Positions 21,718-29,582 of a DNA stretch of 64,000 bases are shown here, piece after piece. Origin of the DNA: Rhodanobacter glycinis. GTDB lineage: Bacteria; Pseudomonadota; Gammaproteobacteria; Xanthomonadales; Rhodanobacteraceae. How positions within the stretch are numbered: the stretch's first letter is position 1; each line of letters starts with the position of its first letter. The stretch spans positions 124,001-188,000 of the forward strand of contig NZ_FOSR01000008.1 in NCBI RefSeq assembly GCF_900114325.1, read 5' to 3'. Under the pieces are notes generated by a model. It had not been told where the DNA came from. It did no database searches and saw nothing but the letters and a program-made list of their open reading frames with translations. The position numbers were made by a program, and so were the translations under genes.

Positions 21718-23319
21718 TCAAACCTCGATGGCCGCCGCGTGTTCGCGCGTGGCGGCGAAGCGCACCTGTGGCCAGCGCTCCTGCGCCAGTTGCAGGTTGA
21801 CCCGGGTCGGGGCGATGTAGACCAGTTCGCCGGCCGCATCCAGCGCCAGATTCATCGCGTTCTTCTCGCGGAATTCCTCCAGCTTCTTCTCGTCGTCGCA
21901 GTGCACCCAGCGCGCGGTGGTCACGCTGACCGGCTCGAACGTGGCGTCCACGCCGTATTCGTCCTTCAGCCGGTAGGCCACCACGTCGAACTGCAGCACG
22001 CCGACGGCGCCCAGGATCAGGTCGTTCGACATCAGCGGACGGAAGAACTGCGTGGCGCCTTCCTCGGACAGCTGGGCCAGACCCTTCTGCAACGCCTTCA
22101 TCTTCAGCGGGTCGCGCAGGCGTGCGCGACGGAACAGCTCGGGCGCGAAGTTGGGAATGCCGGTGAAGCTCACGGCTTCGCCTTCGGTGAAGGTGTCGCC
22201 GATGGAAATGGTGCCGTGGTTGTGCAGGCCGATCACGTCGCCCGGATAGGCGCTTTCCACGATCTCGCGATCAGACGCCATGAAGGTGAGCGCGTTGGCG
22301 ATGCGCACGTCCTTGCCGGTGCGGGTCTGGATCATCTTCATGCCGGCGGTATAGGTGCCCGAACACACGCGCATGAAGGCCACGCGGTCGCGGTGCGCGG
22401 GGTCCATGTTGGCCTGGATCTTGAACACGAAGCCGCTGAGCTTTTCCTCGTCCGGCTGCACTTCGCGCGAGGTGGTGGTGCGGGCGCGTGGCGCGGGGGC
22501 ATGCTCGACGAAGAAATCCAGCAGCAGCTGCACGCCGAAGTTGTTCACCGCCGAACCGAAGAACACCGGGGTGAGCTTGCCGGCCAGGTATTCGTCCTGG
22601 TCGAACGAGGGCGCGGCGCCCTGCACCAGCTCCAGTTCCTCGCGCAGCTCGGCCAGTGCCGCGGCGCCGACGGCCGCTTCCAGTCCCGGTGCATCCAGAC
22701 CCTTGAAGATGGTCGAATCCTGCCGGGTGAAATTCTTGCCCTGCTCGAACACGTGCACTTCGTCCAGCAGCAGGTGGTAGACGCCTTTCAGGCGCTTGCC
22801 CATGCCGATCGGCCAGGTCAGCGGCGCGCAGGCGATGCCGAGCACCGACTCCACTTCGTCCAGCAGTTCGATCGGCGAGCGGCCCTCGCGGTCGAGCTTG
22901 TTGATGAAGGTCATGATCGGCGTGTCACGCAGCCGGCAGACTTCCATCAGCTTGATCGTGCGTTCCTCCACGCCCTTGGCGCAGTCGATCACCATCAGCG
23001 CCGAATCGACCGCGGTCAGCACGCGGTAGGTGTCTTCGGAGAAGTCCGCGTGTCCCGGCGTGTCGAGCAGATTGACGATCTTGCCCTCGTACGGGAACTG
23101 CATCACCGACGAGGTGACCGAGATGCCGCGCTCCTTTTCCAGCGCCATCCAGTCGGACGTGGCGTGGCGTGCCGCCTTGCGCCCCTTCACGCTGCCGGCC
23201 ATCTGGATCGCGCCACCGAACAGCAGCAGCTTTTCGGTCAGCGTGGTCTTGCCCGCGTCGGGGTGGCTGACGATGGCGAAGGTGCGGCGGCGGCGGGTTT
23301 CTTGCAGATGGGAGGGCAT
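21718..23319 (-). CDS. prfC: Peptide chain release factor 3
   Basis: This 533-residue translational GTPase recycles RF1 and RF2 from the ribosome after termination. The GTPase motifs are SHPDAGKTT (18-26), DTPGH (86-90) and NKLD (140-143), followed by domain II and a C-terminal domain including [13 protein letters not shown]. It matches RF3 rather than EF-G: the N-terminus is [21 protein letters not shown] and the EF-G domains IV and V are absent. Length agrees with the family (about 530). It stands alone on the minus strand between repeats and an ECF sigma/anti-sigma pair. Confidence 0.96.
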
Positions 23320-23389
23320 GGGATACGGTCAGGCAGCGGTATGCGAACCGCTCATTCTACCGTGAATCGGGCCGTGGCCCTGTGTCGCG

Positions 23390-24166
23390 TCAAATGGCCG
23401 AGGGCCGCGATGCATCGCGGATGGCACGCATGTCGGAGGCGTCGTCGTGGCTGACCAGGGCGTAGTTGTAGCCGTTGCCGGACCAGTACGACGCGACCAG
23501 TTGCCCTTCGCGCCGCTGCCCGCGCCGCAGGGTGCCGGTGTTGGGCGATGGCGGCCGGATGTAGAAACTGATGGCATCGCCCTGGCGATCTTCGTACAGC
23601 ACCATCGCGGCGGGCCCGTTGTCGGTCGCCAGCAGGCGGCCGCCGACGGGGCGAAAGCCGGAGTCCGCCAGGTTGGGCAGTCGCGCCGCGTTGCGGAAGT
23701 GCTGGTCCAGCCAGCCTTGCAGCTCGCCGGCATGCTGCTGTGTCACATCGAGGTTGACGTGCCGGTTCAGCGCGAACATGCGGTAGGCCTGCAGTGCATC
23801 GGCCATGGGTGCCGCGGCCGTCGGCATCGTCATGCGCCGCGCCTGCCAGCCACTGATCGCGCCCACGCCCAGTGCCAGCACCAGCATCGCGGCCATGGCA
23901 AGGCGCGCACGCACGCGGTGTCGGCGTCGTGCCCGGATCGTCGCCGGGTCGAGGGCGGCCTGCCCGGTCGAAGCGGGCAGGCCGCCCAGCATGGCGCGCA
24001 ACTGCTGGGCATCCTGCTGCCACCCGCGAATCTCTTTGGCGCGTGCCGGGTTGCGCTCCAGCCACGCCTCCATGCGGGCGCTGTCGGCTTCGTCCAGGCG
24101 GCCGTCGATGTACGCGTGGATGTCGGCTTCGCCGGGAAACGGGGTTGTCTCGTTCATGTCGTTCAC
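23390..24166 (-). CDS. Membrane-anchored anti-sigma factor
   Basis: The product has 258 residues. The cytoplasmic N-terminal domain (DIHAYIDGRLDEADSARMEAWLERNP) is the RsiW-like anti-sigma fold. One membrane helix at about 88-108 (RLAMAAMLVLALGVGAISGW) leads to a periplasmic domain of about 150 residues. The start overlaps the sigma gene stop by four bases, so sigma and anti-sigma are made together. A second Met four residues in is a possible start. The periplasmic domain contains no Cys pair, so any signal would not be a simple disulfide switch. Its partner is the ECF protein encoded immediately upstream. Confidence 0.85.
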   Translation of the reverse strand: MNDMNETTPFPGEADIHAYIDGRLDEADSARMEAWLERNPARAKEIRGWQQDAQQLRAMLGGLPASTGQAALDPATIRARRRHRVRARLAMAAMLVLALGVGAISGWQARRMTMPTAAAPMADALQAYRMFALNRHVNLDVTQQHAGELQGWLDQHFRNAARLPNLADSGFRPVGGRLLATDNGPAAMVLYEDRQGDAISFYIRPPSPNTGTLRRGQRREGQLVASYWSGNGYNYALVSHDDASDMRAIRDASRPSAI

Positions 24167-24681
24167 TTGAGTAACCGCAGGGCGGGTGTCTTCAATGTTT
24201 CGCCATCGCTCAGTCGGTGCAACGCCGCCCGAGCTCGTGACAGGCGCGACATCACGGTGCCCATGGGCACGTCCAGAAGCTGGGCCACTTCACGGTAGCT
24301 GAGGCCTTCCACCGAAACCCACAGCAGCAGGTGCCGCTGTTCGTCGGGCAGGCGTTCCAGCGCCTGCAATGCCGACTGCGCCATCACCTCGCGTTCCACC
24401 GACGGCTGTTCGCCTTCGCTGCCATGGTGCAGGAACCTGAGCATGCTGGCGTAGCGCTGCGCGCGGCGTTTGCCATCCAGGAACAGGCGATACGCGATGG
24501 TGAACAGCCACGCCCGCAGCGCGGTGTCGTCACGCCGGCTTTCCCAGCGTGAAAGCGCCCGCTCCAGGGTCGACTGGACCAGATCGTCGGCATTGTTGAC
24601 GTCGCGCGTCAACCAGCGCGCAAAGCGGCGCAGGCGCGGCAACAACTCGCGCAATTGATCGTCGATGTCGTGTTCGAGCAT
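24163..24681 (-). CDS. ECF-type RNA polymerase sigma factor
   Basis: The product has 172 residues. Region 2 (FARWLTRDVNNADDLVQSTLERAL) and region 4 (LSYREVAQLLDVPMGTVMSRLSRAR) are clear. It overlaps the anti-sigma gene by four bases. Upstream, at 24720-24746 on the minus strand, is GGGAATAA-N14-CGTCT. The same motif in the opposite direction faces the YVTN gene and a third copy precedes the binding-protein gene, so the factor probably controls itself and both neighbouring units. The activating signal is not visible in the sequence. Confidence 0.92.
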   Translation of the reverse strand: MLEHDIDDQLRELLPRLRRFARWLTRDVNNADDLVQSTLERALSRWESRRDDTALRAWLFTIAYRLFLDGKRRAQRYASMLRFLHHGSEGEQPSVEREVMAQSALQALERLPDEQRHLLLWVSVEGLSYREVAQLLDVPMGTVMSRLSRARAALHRLSDGETLKTPALRLLK

Positions 24682-24719
24682 GGCCGGAGAGGCCTCCCGC
24701 GGCGTGGCAGATGCAGGGC

Positions 24720-24746
24720 AGACGCTATCGCGCGGGAATTATTCCC
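24720..24746 (-). promoter_or_regulatory. ECF-type promoter of the sigma/anti-sigma operon
   Basis: Read on the minus strand: GGGAATAA (24746-24739), 14 bases, CGTCT (24724-24720), with the sigma ATG at 24681 about 40 bases downstream. The motif and spacing equal those of the divergent copy at 24754-24780, which implies autoregulation. Confidence 0.7.
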
Positions 24747-24753
24747 GGTGCCG

Positions 24754-24780
24754 GGGAATAAATGTCGACGCGGGGCGTCT
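24754..24780 (+). promoter_or_regulatory. ECF-type promoter of the YVTN-HiPIP unit
   Basis: GGGAATAA at 24754-24761, 14 bases, CGTCT at 24776-24780. It lies back-to-back with the minus-strand copy and about 105 bases upstream of the ATG at 24887. Confidence 0.7.
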
Positions 24781-24886
24781 GCCTTGTGCAACCCGGACCG
24801 TCGAAGGCCCGGGTACGGTTCACGGCGAACATCCATGACCGCCGCGAACGAATGCAAACAGATCCTCCCACATGACAGGAATTGGC

Positions 24887-25888
24887 ATGAGTTTGAGCAA
24901 TAACCTTACGACAGGCGGCCTGCGCCGCACGCTGGCCTGCTGCGCCGTGACGCTGGTGCTTGGCGGCGGTATCGCTGGCGCCCGTGCGGCCGAACCGGAA
25001 AGCCTGTTTCCCGCACCGGTCTACGTGACCTTGCAGGCGGGCAACGCCGTCGAGAACATGCCGTCGGGCAAGACGTGGGGCGACGTGGCCAGTGCCCACT
25101 ACGACGCCATCAGCCGGGATGGCAAATATCTGCTGGCCAGCAGCAAGGATCGCCCGGAAGCCTATATGCTGGACGCGCACAGCGGCAAGAAGCTGGCCAC
25201 TTACGACATCGGTCCGACGCCGCAAGGTGTGGCGATCAGCCCGGATGGACGCTGGGGCATGGCAGTCAGCGCGGGTAATGGCACGGTGGCGGTCATCGAC
25301 ATGGCGACTCGCAAACTGGTCAAGTCGATTGCGGTCGGCAAGGTGCCGCACAACATCCGCTTCATCGCGGACAGCAAGCTCGCCTACGTGACCCTGCAAG
25401 GCGGCACCGGCGTGGCCGTGGTGGACATGCAGTCGCTGAAGAAGATCGACGAAATCCCGGTGCCGGGCATCCACGGTCCGCACAACCTCGATCTTTCCGC
25501 CGACGAAAAGACCCTGTGGGTACGCGACCTGGTCGGCAAGGTCGCCGTCGTCGACATTCCGTCGCGCAAGGAGCTGGCAGTGATCCCGGTGGGTCTGGGC
25601 CACGCCGGCATCGACGTCATTCCCGGTGGCCGCTACGTGTTCACCGGGGCGATTGCCGACCACGTGGTGGACGTGATCGACCCGACCACGTTCAAGGTGG
25701 TCAAGCGCATCGATGTCGGCCAGGGGCCGCATGGCGTGCGCGCCAGCCGCGATGGCCGCTGGGTCTACGTGGGCGTCACCGGCACCGACAAGGTAGCGGT
25801 GATCGATTCCCGCAGCCTCGATGTGGTGAAGCAGATATCCACCGATGGCAAGTTGCCGTTCTGGCTCACCGTCGTCGGCAACGACTGA
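24887..25888 (+). CDS. Periplasmic YVTN-type beta-propeller protein
   Basis: The product has 333 residues. I chose ATG 24887 because CAGGAA precedes it; an ATG at 24872 has no ribosome site. A signal peptide (LACCAVTLVLGGGIAGARA) is followed by about seven repeats built on 'D..(T/S)xK(V/L)xxxIxVGxxPxGV', for example VIDMATRKLVKSIAVGKVPHN and VIDPTTFKVVKRIDVGQGPHG. This is the seven-bladed propeller class related to the YncE and cytochrome cd1 propeller families. No haem-binding CxxCH is present. It is the first gene of an ECF-controlled unit followed by HiPIP, which suggests a role in envelope redox or stress biology. The exact activity is unknown. Confidence 0.85.
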   Translation: MSLSNNLTTGGLRRTLACCAVTLVLGGGIAGARAAEPESLFPAPVYVTLQAGNAVENMPSGKTWGDVASAHYDAISRDGKYLLASSKDRPEAYMLDAHSGKKLATYDIGPTPQGVAISPDGRWGMAVSAGNGTVAVIDMATRKLVKSIAVGKVPHNIRFIADSKLAYVTLQGGTGVAVVDMQSLKKIDEIPVPGIHGPHNLDLSADEKTLWVRDLVGKVAVVDIPSRKELAVIPVGLGHAGIDVIPGGRYVFTGAIADHVVDVIDPTTFKVVKRIDVGQGPHGVRASRDGRWVYVGVTGTDKVAVIDSRSLDVVKQISTDGKLPFWLTVVGND

Positions 25889-25974
25889 GCCGAGCCGGTT
25901 TCCATGGCGCAGGCAGCCGGCTTCGCGCGGGCTGCCGCGCCCATCACTTTTCCATGAACACGAGAACCCAGGTC

Positions 25975-26286
25975 ATGACCGACTCATTCAACCCCGTCAT
26001 TTCGCGCCGCCTGATGCTGCGGCACATCGCGGTGGCCGCAGGTGCGGTCGCCAGCTTGCCGCTGCTCGCCCGACCCGCCCTGGCGCGTGCGGACGCGGCT
26101 CCCGCCTCCGGCACGGCGGCCAAATCGGCGTTGCAATACCAGGATCACCCGAAGGGCACGTCGGCGTGTGCGAACTGCGCCAACTACATCCCGGGCAAGG
26201 ACCCCAAGGCCGACGGTCGCTGCATCATCGTGGCCGGCGATATCAGTCCGAAGGGCTGGTGTCTGGCCTACGCCGGCAACGGTTGA
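25975..26286 (+). CDS. High-potential iron-sulfur protein (HiPIP), Tat-exported
   Basis: The product has 103 residues. A twin-arginine signal (SRRLMLRHIAVAAGAVASLPLL) precedes a short mature domain with the four HiPIP cysteines Cys65, Cys68, Cys83 and Cys96 in CANC, GRC and GWC contexts, holding one 4Fe-4S cluster. HiPIPs are soluble periplasmic one-electron carriers. Tat export fits a cluster inserted in the cytoplasm. The ATG at 25975 follows CCAGG; one at 25954 would add seven residues. It lies 86 bases after the YVTN gene without its own copy of the ECF motif, so it is probably co-transcribed. The redox partner is unidentified. Confidence 0.92.
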   Translation: MTDSFNPVISRRLMLRHIAVAAGAVASLPLLARPALARADAAPASGTAAKSALQYQDHPKGTSACANCANYIPGKDPKADGRCIIVAGDISPKGWCLAYAGNG

Positions 26287-26339
26287 GGCCGCCGTTGCCC
26301 TGGCTTCGGCGCGGCGGAACAGGGAAAGCCCGTCGCCGC

Positions 26340-26367
26340 GGGAATAAACCGGATGGCCCGGGCGTCT
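26340..26367 (+). promoter_or_regulatory. ECF-type promoter of the binding-protein gene
   Basis: GGGAATAA at 26340-26347, 15 bases, CGTCT at 26363-26367, about 80 bases before the ATG at 26446. It is the third copy of the motif found on both sides of 24750. Confidence 0.65.
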
Positions 26368-26445
26368 CTCTCCTGACCACGCGGCCATGCGATGGCCGCT
26401 GAAAAGCCCCGCAAGGGATACCCGTACCCGGATCAGGACACGCTG

Positions 26446-27249
26446 ATGAAACCCGTCATTCCCGCTTTGCTTGCCGCCGTGCTGCCGTGGGCACTCTGCC
26501 TTTCGGCAACGGCGCACGAGATACCCGACCCGACGATCGTGCACAACGCCAGGGACGGCGTGGTGCGGTTGTACGGCGCCGGCGGACCCGACACGGCTTT
26601 CCGCAAGGTGGCCGCGGCATACCAGAAGAAAACCGGCGTGCAGGTGGTCATCACCGCCGGCCCCGAACCCACCTGGACGAAGAACGCCCAGGCCAACGCC
26701 GACATCCTCTGGGGCACCGCCGAGCAGGACATCACGGCTTTTCTGGAAACCTACAAGACGTTTTCTTCCCGCGATGTCATGCCGATCTATATCCGTCCCG
26801 CGATCATCGCGGTGCAGAAGGGCAACCCCAAAGGCATCCGCGGCTTCGACGACCTGCTGAAGAATGGCATGAAGATCGTCGTCACCGAAGGTTCCGGCGT
26901 GGCGAATACGTCCGGGACAGGCGTGTGGGAAGACGTCGCCGGCCGCCTGGGCAGCCTCGATGACGTCAAGCGCTTCCGCACGAATATCGTTGCCTTCGGC
27001 AAGGGCAGCGGTGCGTCCTACAAGGCCTTCGTCAGCATGCATGCCGATGCCTGGATCACCTGGCCGGACTGGCCGATCACCCATCCGGAGCAGGCGGACC
27101 TAGTGCCGCTGTCCAAGGCGCGAACCATCTGGCGCGACGTCAATGTCGTGCTGGCTCCGGATGCCGACCCCGAGGCCCGGAAGTTCGTGGGTTTCCTGAC
27201 CAGTGAAGAGGGCGCCCGCATCATGAAAACCGAGGGCTGGGTGCGCTGA
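26446..27249 (+). CDS. Periplasmic substrate-binding protein, ModA/SBP type II-like
   Basis: The product has 267 residues. The start at 26446 follows AGGACACG and opens with a signal peptide (MKPVIPALLAAVLPWALCLSATA). The mature part has the type II periplasmic-binding fold: VVRLYGAGGPDTAFRKVAAAYQKKTG, then ILWGTAEQDITAFLE, VTEGSGVANTSGTGVWED and a C-terminal FLTSEEGARIMK. These resemble molybdate or anion binding proteins. No ABC permease or ATPase gene follows; a terminator does. It is therefore an orphan binder that may sense or scavenge a ligand. An upstream ECF-type promoter links it to the sigma factor at 24163. The ligand cannot be named. Confidence 0.82.
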   Translation: MKPVIPALLAAVLPWALCLSATAHEIPDPTIVHNARDGVVRLYGAGGPDTAFRKVAAAYQKKTGVQVVITAGPEPTWTKNAQANADILWGTAEQDITAFLETYKTFSSRDVMPIYIRPAIIAVQKGNPKGIRGFDDLLKNGMKIVVTEGSGVANTSGTGVWEDVAGRLGSLDDVKRFRTNIVAFGKGSGASYKAFVSMHADAWITWPDWPITHPEQADLVPLSKARTIWRDVNVVLAPDADPEARKFVGFLTSEEGARIMKTEGWVR

Positions 27250-27345
27250 TCCGACAACCCTCGTGGTCGTGGCACATGCGGCACGTCCCTATGGCTCTGG
27301 GGGCGAGTGTGTCATCGGCCCTTCGGCCCCGATGAATGGGTGCCT

Positions 27346-27388
27346 CGCCCTGCAGTGCCATCTGGCGTGCACTGCAGGGCGACTTTTT
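27346..27388 (+). terminator. Rho-independent terminator
   Basis: CGCCCTGCAGTGC at 27346-27358 pairs perfectly with GCACTGCAGGGCG at 27369-27381, followed by ACTTTTT. It ends the binding-protein unit and also lies just beyond the EF-G gene read from the other side. Confidence 0.85.
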
Positions 27389-27440
27389 GCCTGCTTCATC
27401 CCGCCGGCACCGCGTGCCATCGCGGATGAAGGAACACGAC

Positions 27441-29582
<2,142 letters not shown>

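Follow-up and report, generated by a model that had tools for sequence, protein, structure and literature searches.

The window, meaning the whole 64,000-nucleotide stretch of Rhodanobacter glycinis DNA analyzed here, contains a gene for an ECF-type sigma factor and a probable anti-sigma gene on the minus strand. Facing away from them on the plus strand are a two-gene unit for a YVTN-type propeller and a high-potential iron-sulfur protein (HiPIP) and then a gene for a PEB3/AcfC-like periplasmic binding protein. Each of the three units is preceded by the same two-part sequence. The features are listed below; bit scores come from a matrix built on relatives, and the predicted transcription starts were estimated from mapped Sinorhizobium meliloti promoters.

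23390..24166, minus strand: probable anti-sigma factor, overlapping the sigma gene (weak NCBIfam anti-sigma matches; position beside the sigma gene)
24163..24681, minus strand: ECF-type sigma factor, 172 aa (Sigma70_r2 and Sigma70_r4_2 above Pfam cut-offs)
near 24711-24712, minus strand: predicted start from promoter 1
24720..24746, minus strand: putative promoter 1, GGGAATAA-N14-CGTCT, facing the sigma/anti-sigma operon; 23.3 bits
24754..24780, plus strand: putative promoter 2, GGGAATAA-N14-CGTCT, facing the YVTN-HiPIP unit; 26.9 bits
near 24788-24789, plus strand: predicted start from promoter 2
24887..25888, plus strand: secreted YVTN-type seven-bladed propeller, 333 aa (TIGR02276 repeats; AlphaFold model)
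25975..26286, plus strand: HiPIP with a twin-arginine-like leader, 103 aa (PF01355, 27.8 bits, cut-off 22)
26340..26367, plus strand: putative promoter 3, GGGAATAA-N15-CGTCT, facing the binding-protein gene; 29.0 bits, the top score in the window
near 26375-26376, plus strand: predicted start from promoter 3
26446..27249, plus strand: PEB3/AcfC-like periplasmic binding protein, 267 aa (solved PEB3/AcfC; SBP_bac_11)
27345..27389, plus strand: probable terminator after the binding-protein gene (hairpin at 27345-27382, then five T)

Proteins encoded at the locus

The 172-aa protein has regions 2 and 4 as its only sigma regions and lies next to an anti-sigma-like gene (itself with weak model matches), which identifies it as an ECF sigma factor. 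When the genome was searched with it, a single protein was found at E<=1e-15, so the cell appears to have no close paralogue. The anti-sigma candidate starts at GTG 24166 or ATG 24157, contains a single hydrophobic segment resembling a membrane helix, and matches an NCBIfam model at E 2.6e-8 (34.2 bits, where the cut-off is 100); partners 42-73% identical to it adjoin orthologous sigma factors.

The first protein of the divergent unit, for which an upstream start at 24872 is possible, combines YVTN repeats with a propeller fold and is thus a YVTN propeller; its AlphaFold model has a mean pLDDT of 87.7, and the nearest solved fold is the YVTN propeller 1l0q. Six histidines (positions 71, 155, 199, 239, 259, and 282) are invariant in 9 orthologues, and four of these (155, 199, 239, and 282), spaced about one blade apart, are kept in more distant homologues too; judging from this pattern, the histidines may form a metal site. 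There was also a below-cut-off match to lactonase-type nitrous-oxide reductase. One distant homologue (L282, 943-3046) has an N-terminal extension that is a cytochrome c domain, with a different ECF sigma gene directly after it, and the extension of another (L284, 55-1293) reads like cytochrome c. The second protein of the unit is classed as a HiPIP on its PF01355 match above cut-off and four visible, spaced cysteines, and it matches solved HiPIPs at E 5.5e-9. The binding protein matches solved PEB3 and AcfC over residues 37-265 at E about 5e-60, which places it in that family. The hairpin downstream of its gene has a folding energy of -29.3 kcal/mol (z -5.59), and a simple terminator scan did not list 27345-27389.

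Occurrence and conservation of the promoter motif

The original prediction had placed the motif at 24746-24720 on the minus strand and 24754-24780 on the plus strand, with an N15 copy at 26340-26367, and these positions and spacers were all confirmed. It had also noticed no further copy in the window, and this holds: GGGAATAA-N12..17-CGTCT matches three times in the 64 kb, compared to none in 100 shuffles. The genome-wide search that it proposed was run on 3,865,941 bases in 29 contigs (3.87 Mb) and returned exactly these three matches with N14 or N15; even with the spacer opened to N12-17 there were three, all here, compared to none for a reversed-pattern control. From base composition, about 0.085 exact N14/N15 matches would be expected per genome, compared to three found, all within 1.65 kb. 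In 398 genomes drawn from the order, the exact N14/15 pattern occurred in 28; three copies were seen in the genome studied here only, and two copies in two other genomes. The three window sites share core letters only, and there was no sigma-70-like promoter in 23300-27500.

Looser searches added little. The relaxed core GGAATAA-N14/15-CGTC gave a fourth genome match, at C14:325345, which was rejected as a promoter because it is antisense inside an open reading frame that reads like a TonB-dependent receptor; a one-mismatch N15 match at C9:53194 was rejected because it overlaps the start of an open reading frame that reads like mraZ. With up to 2 mismatches, the genome had 23 (N14) and 25 (N15) sites compared to 18 and 15 for the reversed control, and since these counts are so close, the looser matches are mostly noise.

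Sigma orthologues at E<=1e-40 were found in 39 of 233 family genomes, including the genome studied here. Within the genus, 14 other genomes gave no such orthologue, which makes the distribution of the locus patchy. One locus per genome was compared, each picked by protein, five of the stretches having first been fetched via the motif. GGAATA-N15/16-CGTC faces the sigma gene in 37 of the 39 loci (the exceptions are G161 and G072, the latter with a contig that ends on that side; another G072 contig, L123, has a site at the sigma start). On the divergent side the site is likewise present in 37 loci, being absent in G072 and G147, and both sites together occur in 36 of 39, whatever genes stand opposite. 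Elsewhere in these loci there were only 4 sites in 324,533 bases, one of them the third site of the window. When the window was scored with a matrix built on 72 sites, taken from 37 other genomes, the three sites came out on top (29.0, 26.9, and 23.3 bits; next, 6.9 bits), although the 72 were gathered with the core GGAATA...CGTC, so that the core itself lacks an independent test. The spacer between GGAATA and CGTC was N15 in 68 of the 72 sites and N16 in the other 4. The core pattern was present in 41 of 42 whole genomes (39 with the sigma gene and 3 chosen for a YVTN gene); a lone distant match to it means little, because the reversed control also matches in many of these genomes.

In the window, the GGAATA elements of promoters 1 and 2 lie back to back with a gap of 9 bp. 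The corresponding gap in 35 paired relatives was 8 bp in 21 cases and 7-10 bp in 27. At such spacing, two polymerases would hardly fit at once, and mutual exclusion is possible. The sigma-facing -35 element also sits in a near-palindrome, GGGAATAATTCCC, at 24733-24746.

The window sites, with a -35 GGAATA and a -10 GT/CGTC, are of the ECF26 promoter type as described in PMC6527743 and PMC6180224. The former gives GGAAT and CGTC, set apart by a distance that can change by 1 bp from one promoter to the next; the window sites show this too. In the latter, the mapped S. meliloti rpoE4 promoter is GGAATAA-N15-CGTCT, and the seven ECF26-group promoters that we measured from its printed sequences have N14 or N15 spacers. 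The last printed base, taken as the start, lies 7-11 nt past the -10 pentamer, mostly 8; the starts found by both methods lie at 9 (sorT) and 8 (SMa0142) nt (PMC6180224). The originally predicted distance of 5-8 bases past CGTCT was corrected to this range. The window sigma factor itself is 43% identical to an S. meliloti pSymA sigma factor, which we take to be RpoE6, since its gene has the published SMa0142 and ecfR6 promoter sequences next to it. This identity, together with a long-branched tree, is suggestive of a position near group ECF26.

Genes near the promoter motif at other loci

The genes opposite the sigma gene change from locus to locus. In 31 of the 39 loci they encode a catalase-family protein and cytochrome b561. 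A YVTN gene is divergent in G062, G063, G066 (with a HiPIP gene), and G072, and a binding-protein gene in G239; G147, G111, and G135 have no catalase-type, YVTN, or binding-protein gene beside the sigma gene. Among the loci examined, only the window has both the YVTN and the binding-protein genes. The link between motif and YVTN gene is well illustrated by G147: its YVTN-HiPIP operon still has the motif, with the sigma gene about 162 kb away. The link is weakened by L122, L125, and L126, in which the YVTN gene has neither the motif nor an adjoining orthologous sigma gene, and by L123, in which the YVTN side has a looser site only. Of 9 loci with a YVTN gene, the window among them, 3 were seen to have a HiPIP gene next to it.

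Several further arrangements were seen. Copper-resistance genes adjoin the YVTN gene in L121 (7587-9904) and L125 (5252-7479), with CopA in both, CopB in L125, and a weak CopL match in L121. An extra motif copy lies beyond the sigma/anti-sigma genes in G111 and G135 (L139, 5825-5850; L188), the one in L139 preceding a histidine-kinase-like open reading frame. G024 has another, more distant sigma/anti-sigma locus (L036, 2782-6176), where three successive N15 copies on one strand precede the sigma gene and two large open reading frames downstream.

Relatives of the binding protein were surveyed in other bacteria through the best 80 of 249 related loci. GGAATA-N14..16-CGT occurs within about 350 nt upstream in 19 of these 80, compared to about 0.8 expected from a background of 32 sites in 1.22 Mb. 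All 19 fall among the 28 loci that show a sigma homologue, compared to 0 of the 52 that show none; this split is a hand count of rows, with some loci clipped by contig ends, and the loci are not independent events, since several positives are near-identical Aureimonas and L201 is the same contig as G239. In G239, the sigma gene and a binding-protein gene 84% identical to that of the window stand directly opposite each other, separated by the promoter pair. Apart from G239/L201, the sigma factors near these genes are 37-46% identical to the window's, and none of the best 80 of 249 loci had a YVTN or HiPIP match at E<=1e-6. Among the neighbors were a molybdenum oxidoreductase with a dimerization domain (L247), another molybdopterin oxidoreductase (L211), and a SLAC1-type channel (L229), all of which would presumably suit sulfite metabolism. 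L232, from S. meliloti 4H41, encodes a binding protein 62% identical to the window's; the DNA before its gene lacks the strict motif and, by eye, resembles the printed promoter of SMc02156. SMc02156 has a periplasmic binding fold and is induced by RpoE1 and RpoE4, and its mapped promoter is looser, without GGAATA (PMC6180224).

A sigma tree was built from 39 sequences, of which 23 belonged to the set of 39 family sigmas and 16 did not. In it, the sigmas of G000, G239, G062, G063, and G072 form one clade (96/85) among the catalase-type sigmas, with weak forks just outside it and long branches elsewhere. The clade fits a single change of the controlled genes followed by losses. The promoter pair might then act as a slot in which the controlled genes are swapped while the regulator and promoters are kept, a catalase-type protein and b561 giving way to a His-rich YVTN propeller (with a HiPIP in the window and G066) and/or a PEB3/AcfC-type protein, the trio serving as a periplasmic redox and oxyanion or metal detoxification system. 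This is speculative, and we consider it rather unlikely as a whole. The set of genes in the window, which encode proteins predicted to lie outside the cytoplasm, is an unusual one for such a circuit.

Proposed circuit and comparison with known systems

Taken together, the sites are best read as promoters of the ECF26-like sigma factor at 24163-24681, which would drive its own operon, the YVTN-HiPIP unit, and the binding-protein gene; based on the sequence comparisons, we give this a probability of about 0.87. Such a circuit had been proposed originally. Its claim for the sigma operon and the divergent unit gains support from the promoter pair in 36 of 39 loci. Its claim for the binding-protein unit is backed by the arrangement in G239, by the 19 of 28 compared to 0 of 52 loci (best 80 of 249), and by the reported induction of SMc02156 by RpoE1. 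In the proposed mechanism, a signal outside the cytoplasm would release the sigma factor from the anti-sigma protein in the membrane, and the freed factor would then recognize all three promoters, its own included. The outcome would be a small regulon with positive autoregulation. Of this mechanism, the signal is the least secure part. It could be an oxidant or a sulfur oxyanion, for example peroxide or sulfite, but the odds are somewhat against it. Peroxide is suggested by the catalase neighbors and by analogy with the Burkholderia cenocepacia catalase/sigma pair BCAL3477 and BCAL3478, reported as induced by H2O2 and not by NaOCl (PMC2830190). The S. meliloti relatives point to sulfite: compounds that generate it are reported to activate RpoE1 and RpoE4, and seemingly not rpoE3 and rpoE6 (PMC3511301). 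Copper is suggested by the copper-resistance genes in two YVTN neighborhoods.

Other explanations of the sites were weighed. They could be true ECF promoters that serve mainly, or in addition, a different ECF sigma factor of the same cell, as cross-activation among RpoE1, RpoE4, and RpoE6 is described in S. meliloti (PMC3511301, PMC6180224); however, the sites occur only around the window sigma gene and are conserved alongside it, and the single protein found at E<=1e-15 leaves no close paralogue to read them, which makes this improbable. Much less probable still is that the sites are operators for a DNA-binding regulator and not promoter elements. The near-palindrome around the sigma-facing -35 element would suit an operator, whereas the remaining two sites have no such symmetry, and the bipartite layout, with its N15 spacer in 68 of 72 sites (N16 in 4), fits a promoter. 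The idea that the repeated sequence is a small repeat or a coincidence with no promoter function has the least probability, close to negligible. It can draw on the G+C-rich region and on the sharing of core letters only, against which stand three sites in 1.65 kb where 0.085 would be expected per genome and the pair in 36 of 39 loci. A chance origin was rejected on the shuffles, the genome-wide count, the matrix ranking, and the 0.085 expectation.

The promoter type and the autoregulated layout are known already and belong to a common kind of bacterial stress circuit. The open-access literature searched, which is only part of the literature, yielded no report of a propeller, a HiPIP, and a binding protein under one ECF factor, of HiPIP, YVTN, and sigma factor together, of AcfC with a sigma factor and sulfite, or of GGGAATAA with an ECF sigma factor. 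The reading of the sites as promoters of the local sigma factor predicts a sharply defined three-transcript regulon for an ECF26-like regulator outside the rhizobia and would connect a stress sigma factor with a YVTN propeller and a HiPIP. A regulator and promoter pair retained as the controlled genes change would also make it easier to predict from sequence which genes other ECF loci control.

The closest described systems are those of S. meliloti RpoE1, RpoE4, and RpoE6, which share with the window a sigma gene followed by a membrane anti-sigma gene, GGAAT(A)-N-CGT promoters, and small local regulons (PMC3511301, PMC6180224). The rpoE1 and rpoE4 operons are self-controlled, and SMc02156 is a target with a periplasmic binding fold. 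Self-control is not universal in ECF26, because the rpoE3 and rpoE6 promoters resemble the RpoD/RpoH type (PMC6180224). Compared with S. meliloti as described in these papers, the window differs in its divergent YVTN-HiPIP unit, in the binding-protein gene beside the sigma gene, and in having no sulfite dehydrogenase in the local regulon. PEB3/AcfC genes beside ECF sigma genes, for example in Aureimonas and Thiobacillus, resemble the window in the upstream GGAATA-N-CGT site and the related sigma factor nearby; they differ in the sequence divergence of that sigma factor (only 37-46% identity, G239/L201 apart) and in the lack of a YVTN/HiPIP match (best 80 of 249). Finally, the catalase/cytochrome b561 loci (31 of 39, and also Gluconobacter and Pantoea plasmids) have an orthologous or related sigma factor and anti-sigma factor. 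The GGAATA-N-CGTC pair is present in all 31 family loci except for the sigma-facing site of G161, and with N16 on the Gluconobacter plasmid, and on the Pantoea plasmid the four genes are co-oriented and a site precedes the catalase gene. What differs from the window in these loci is the genes that are controlled.
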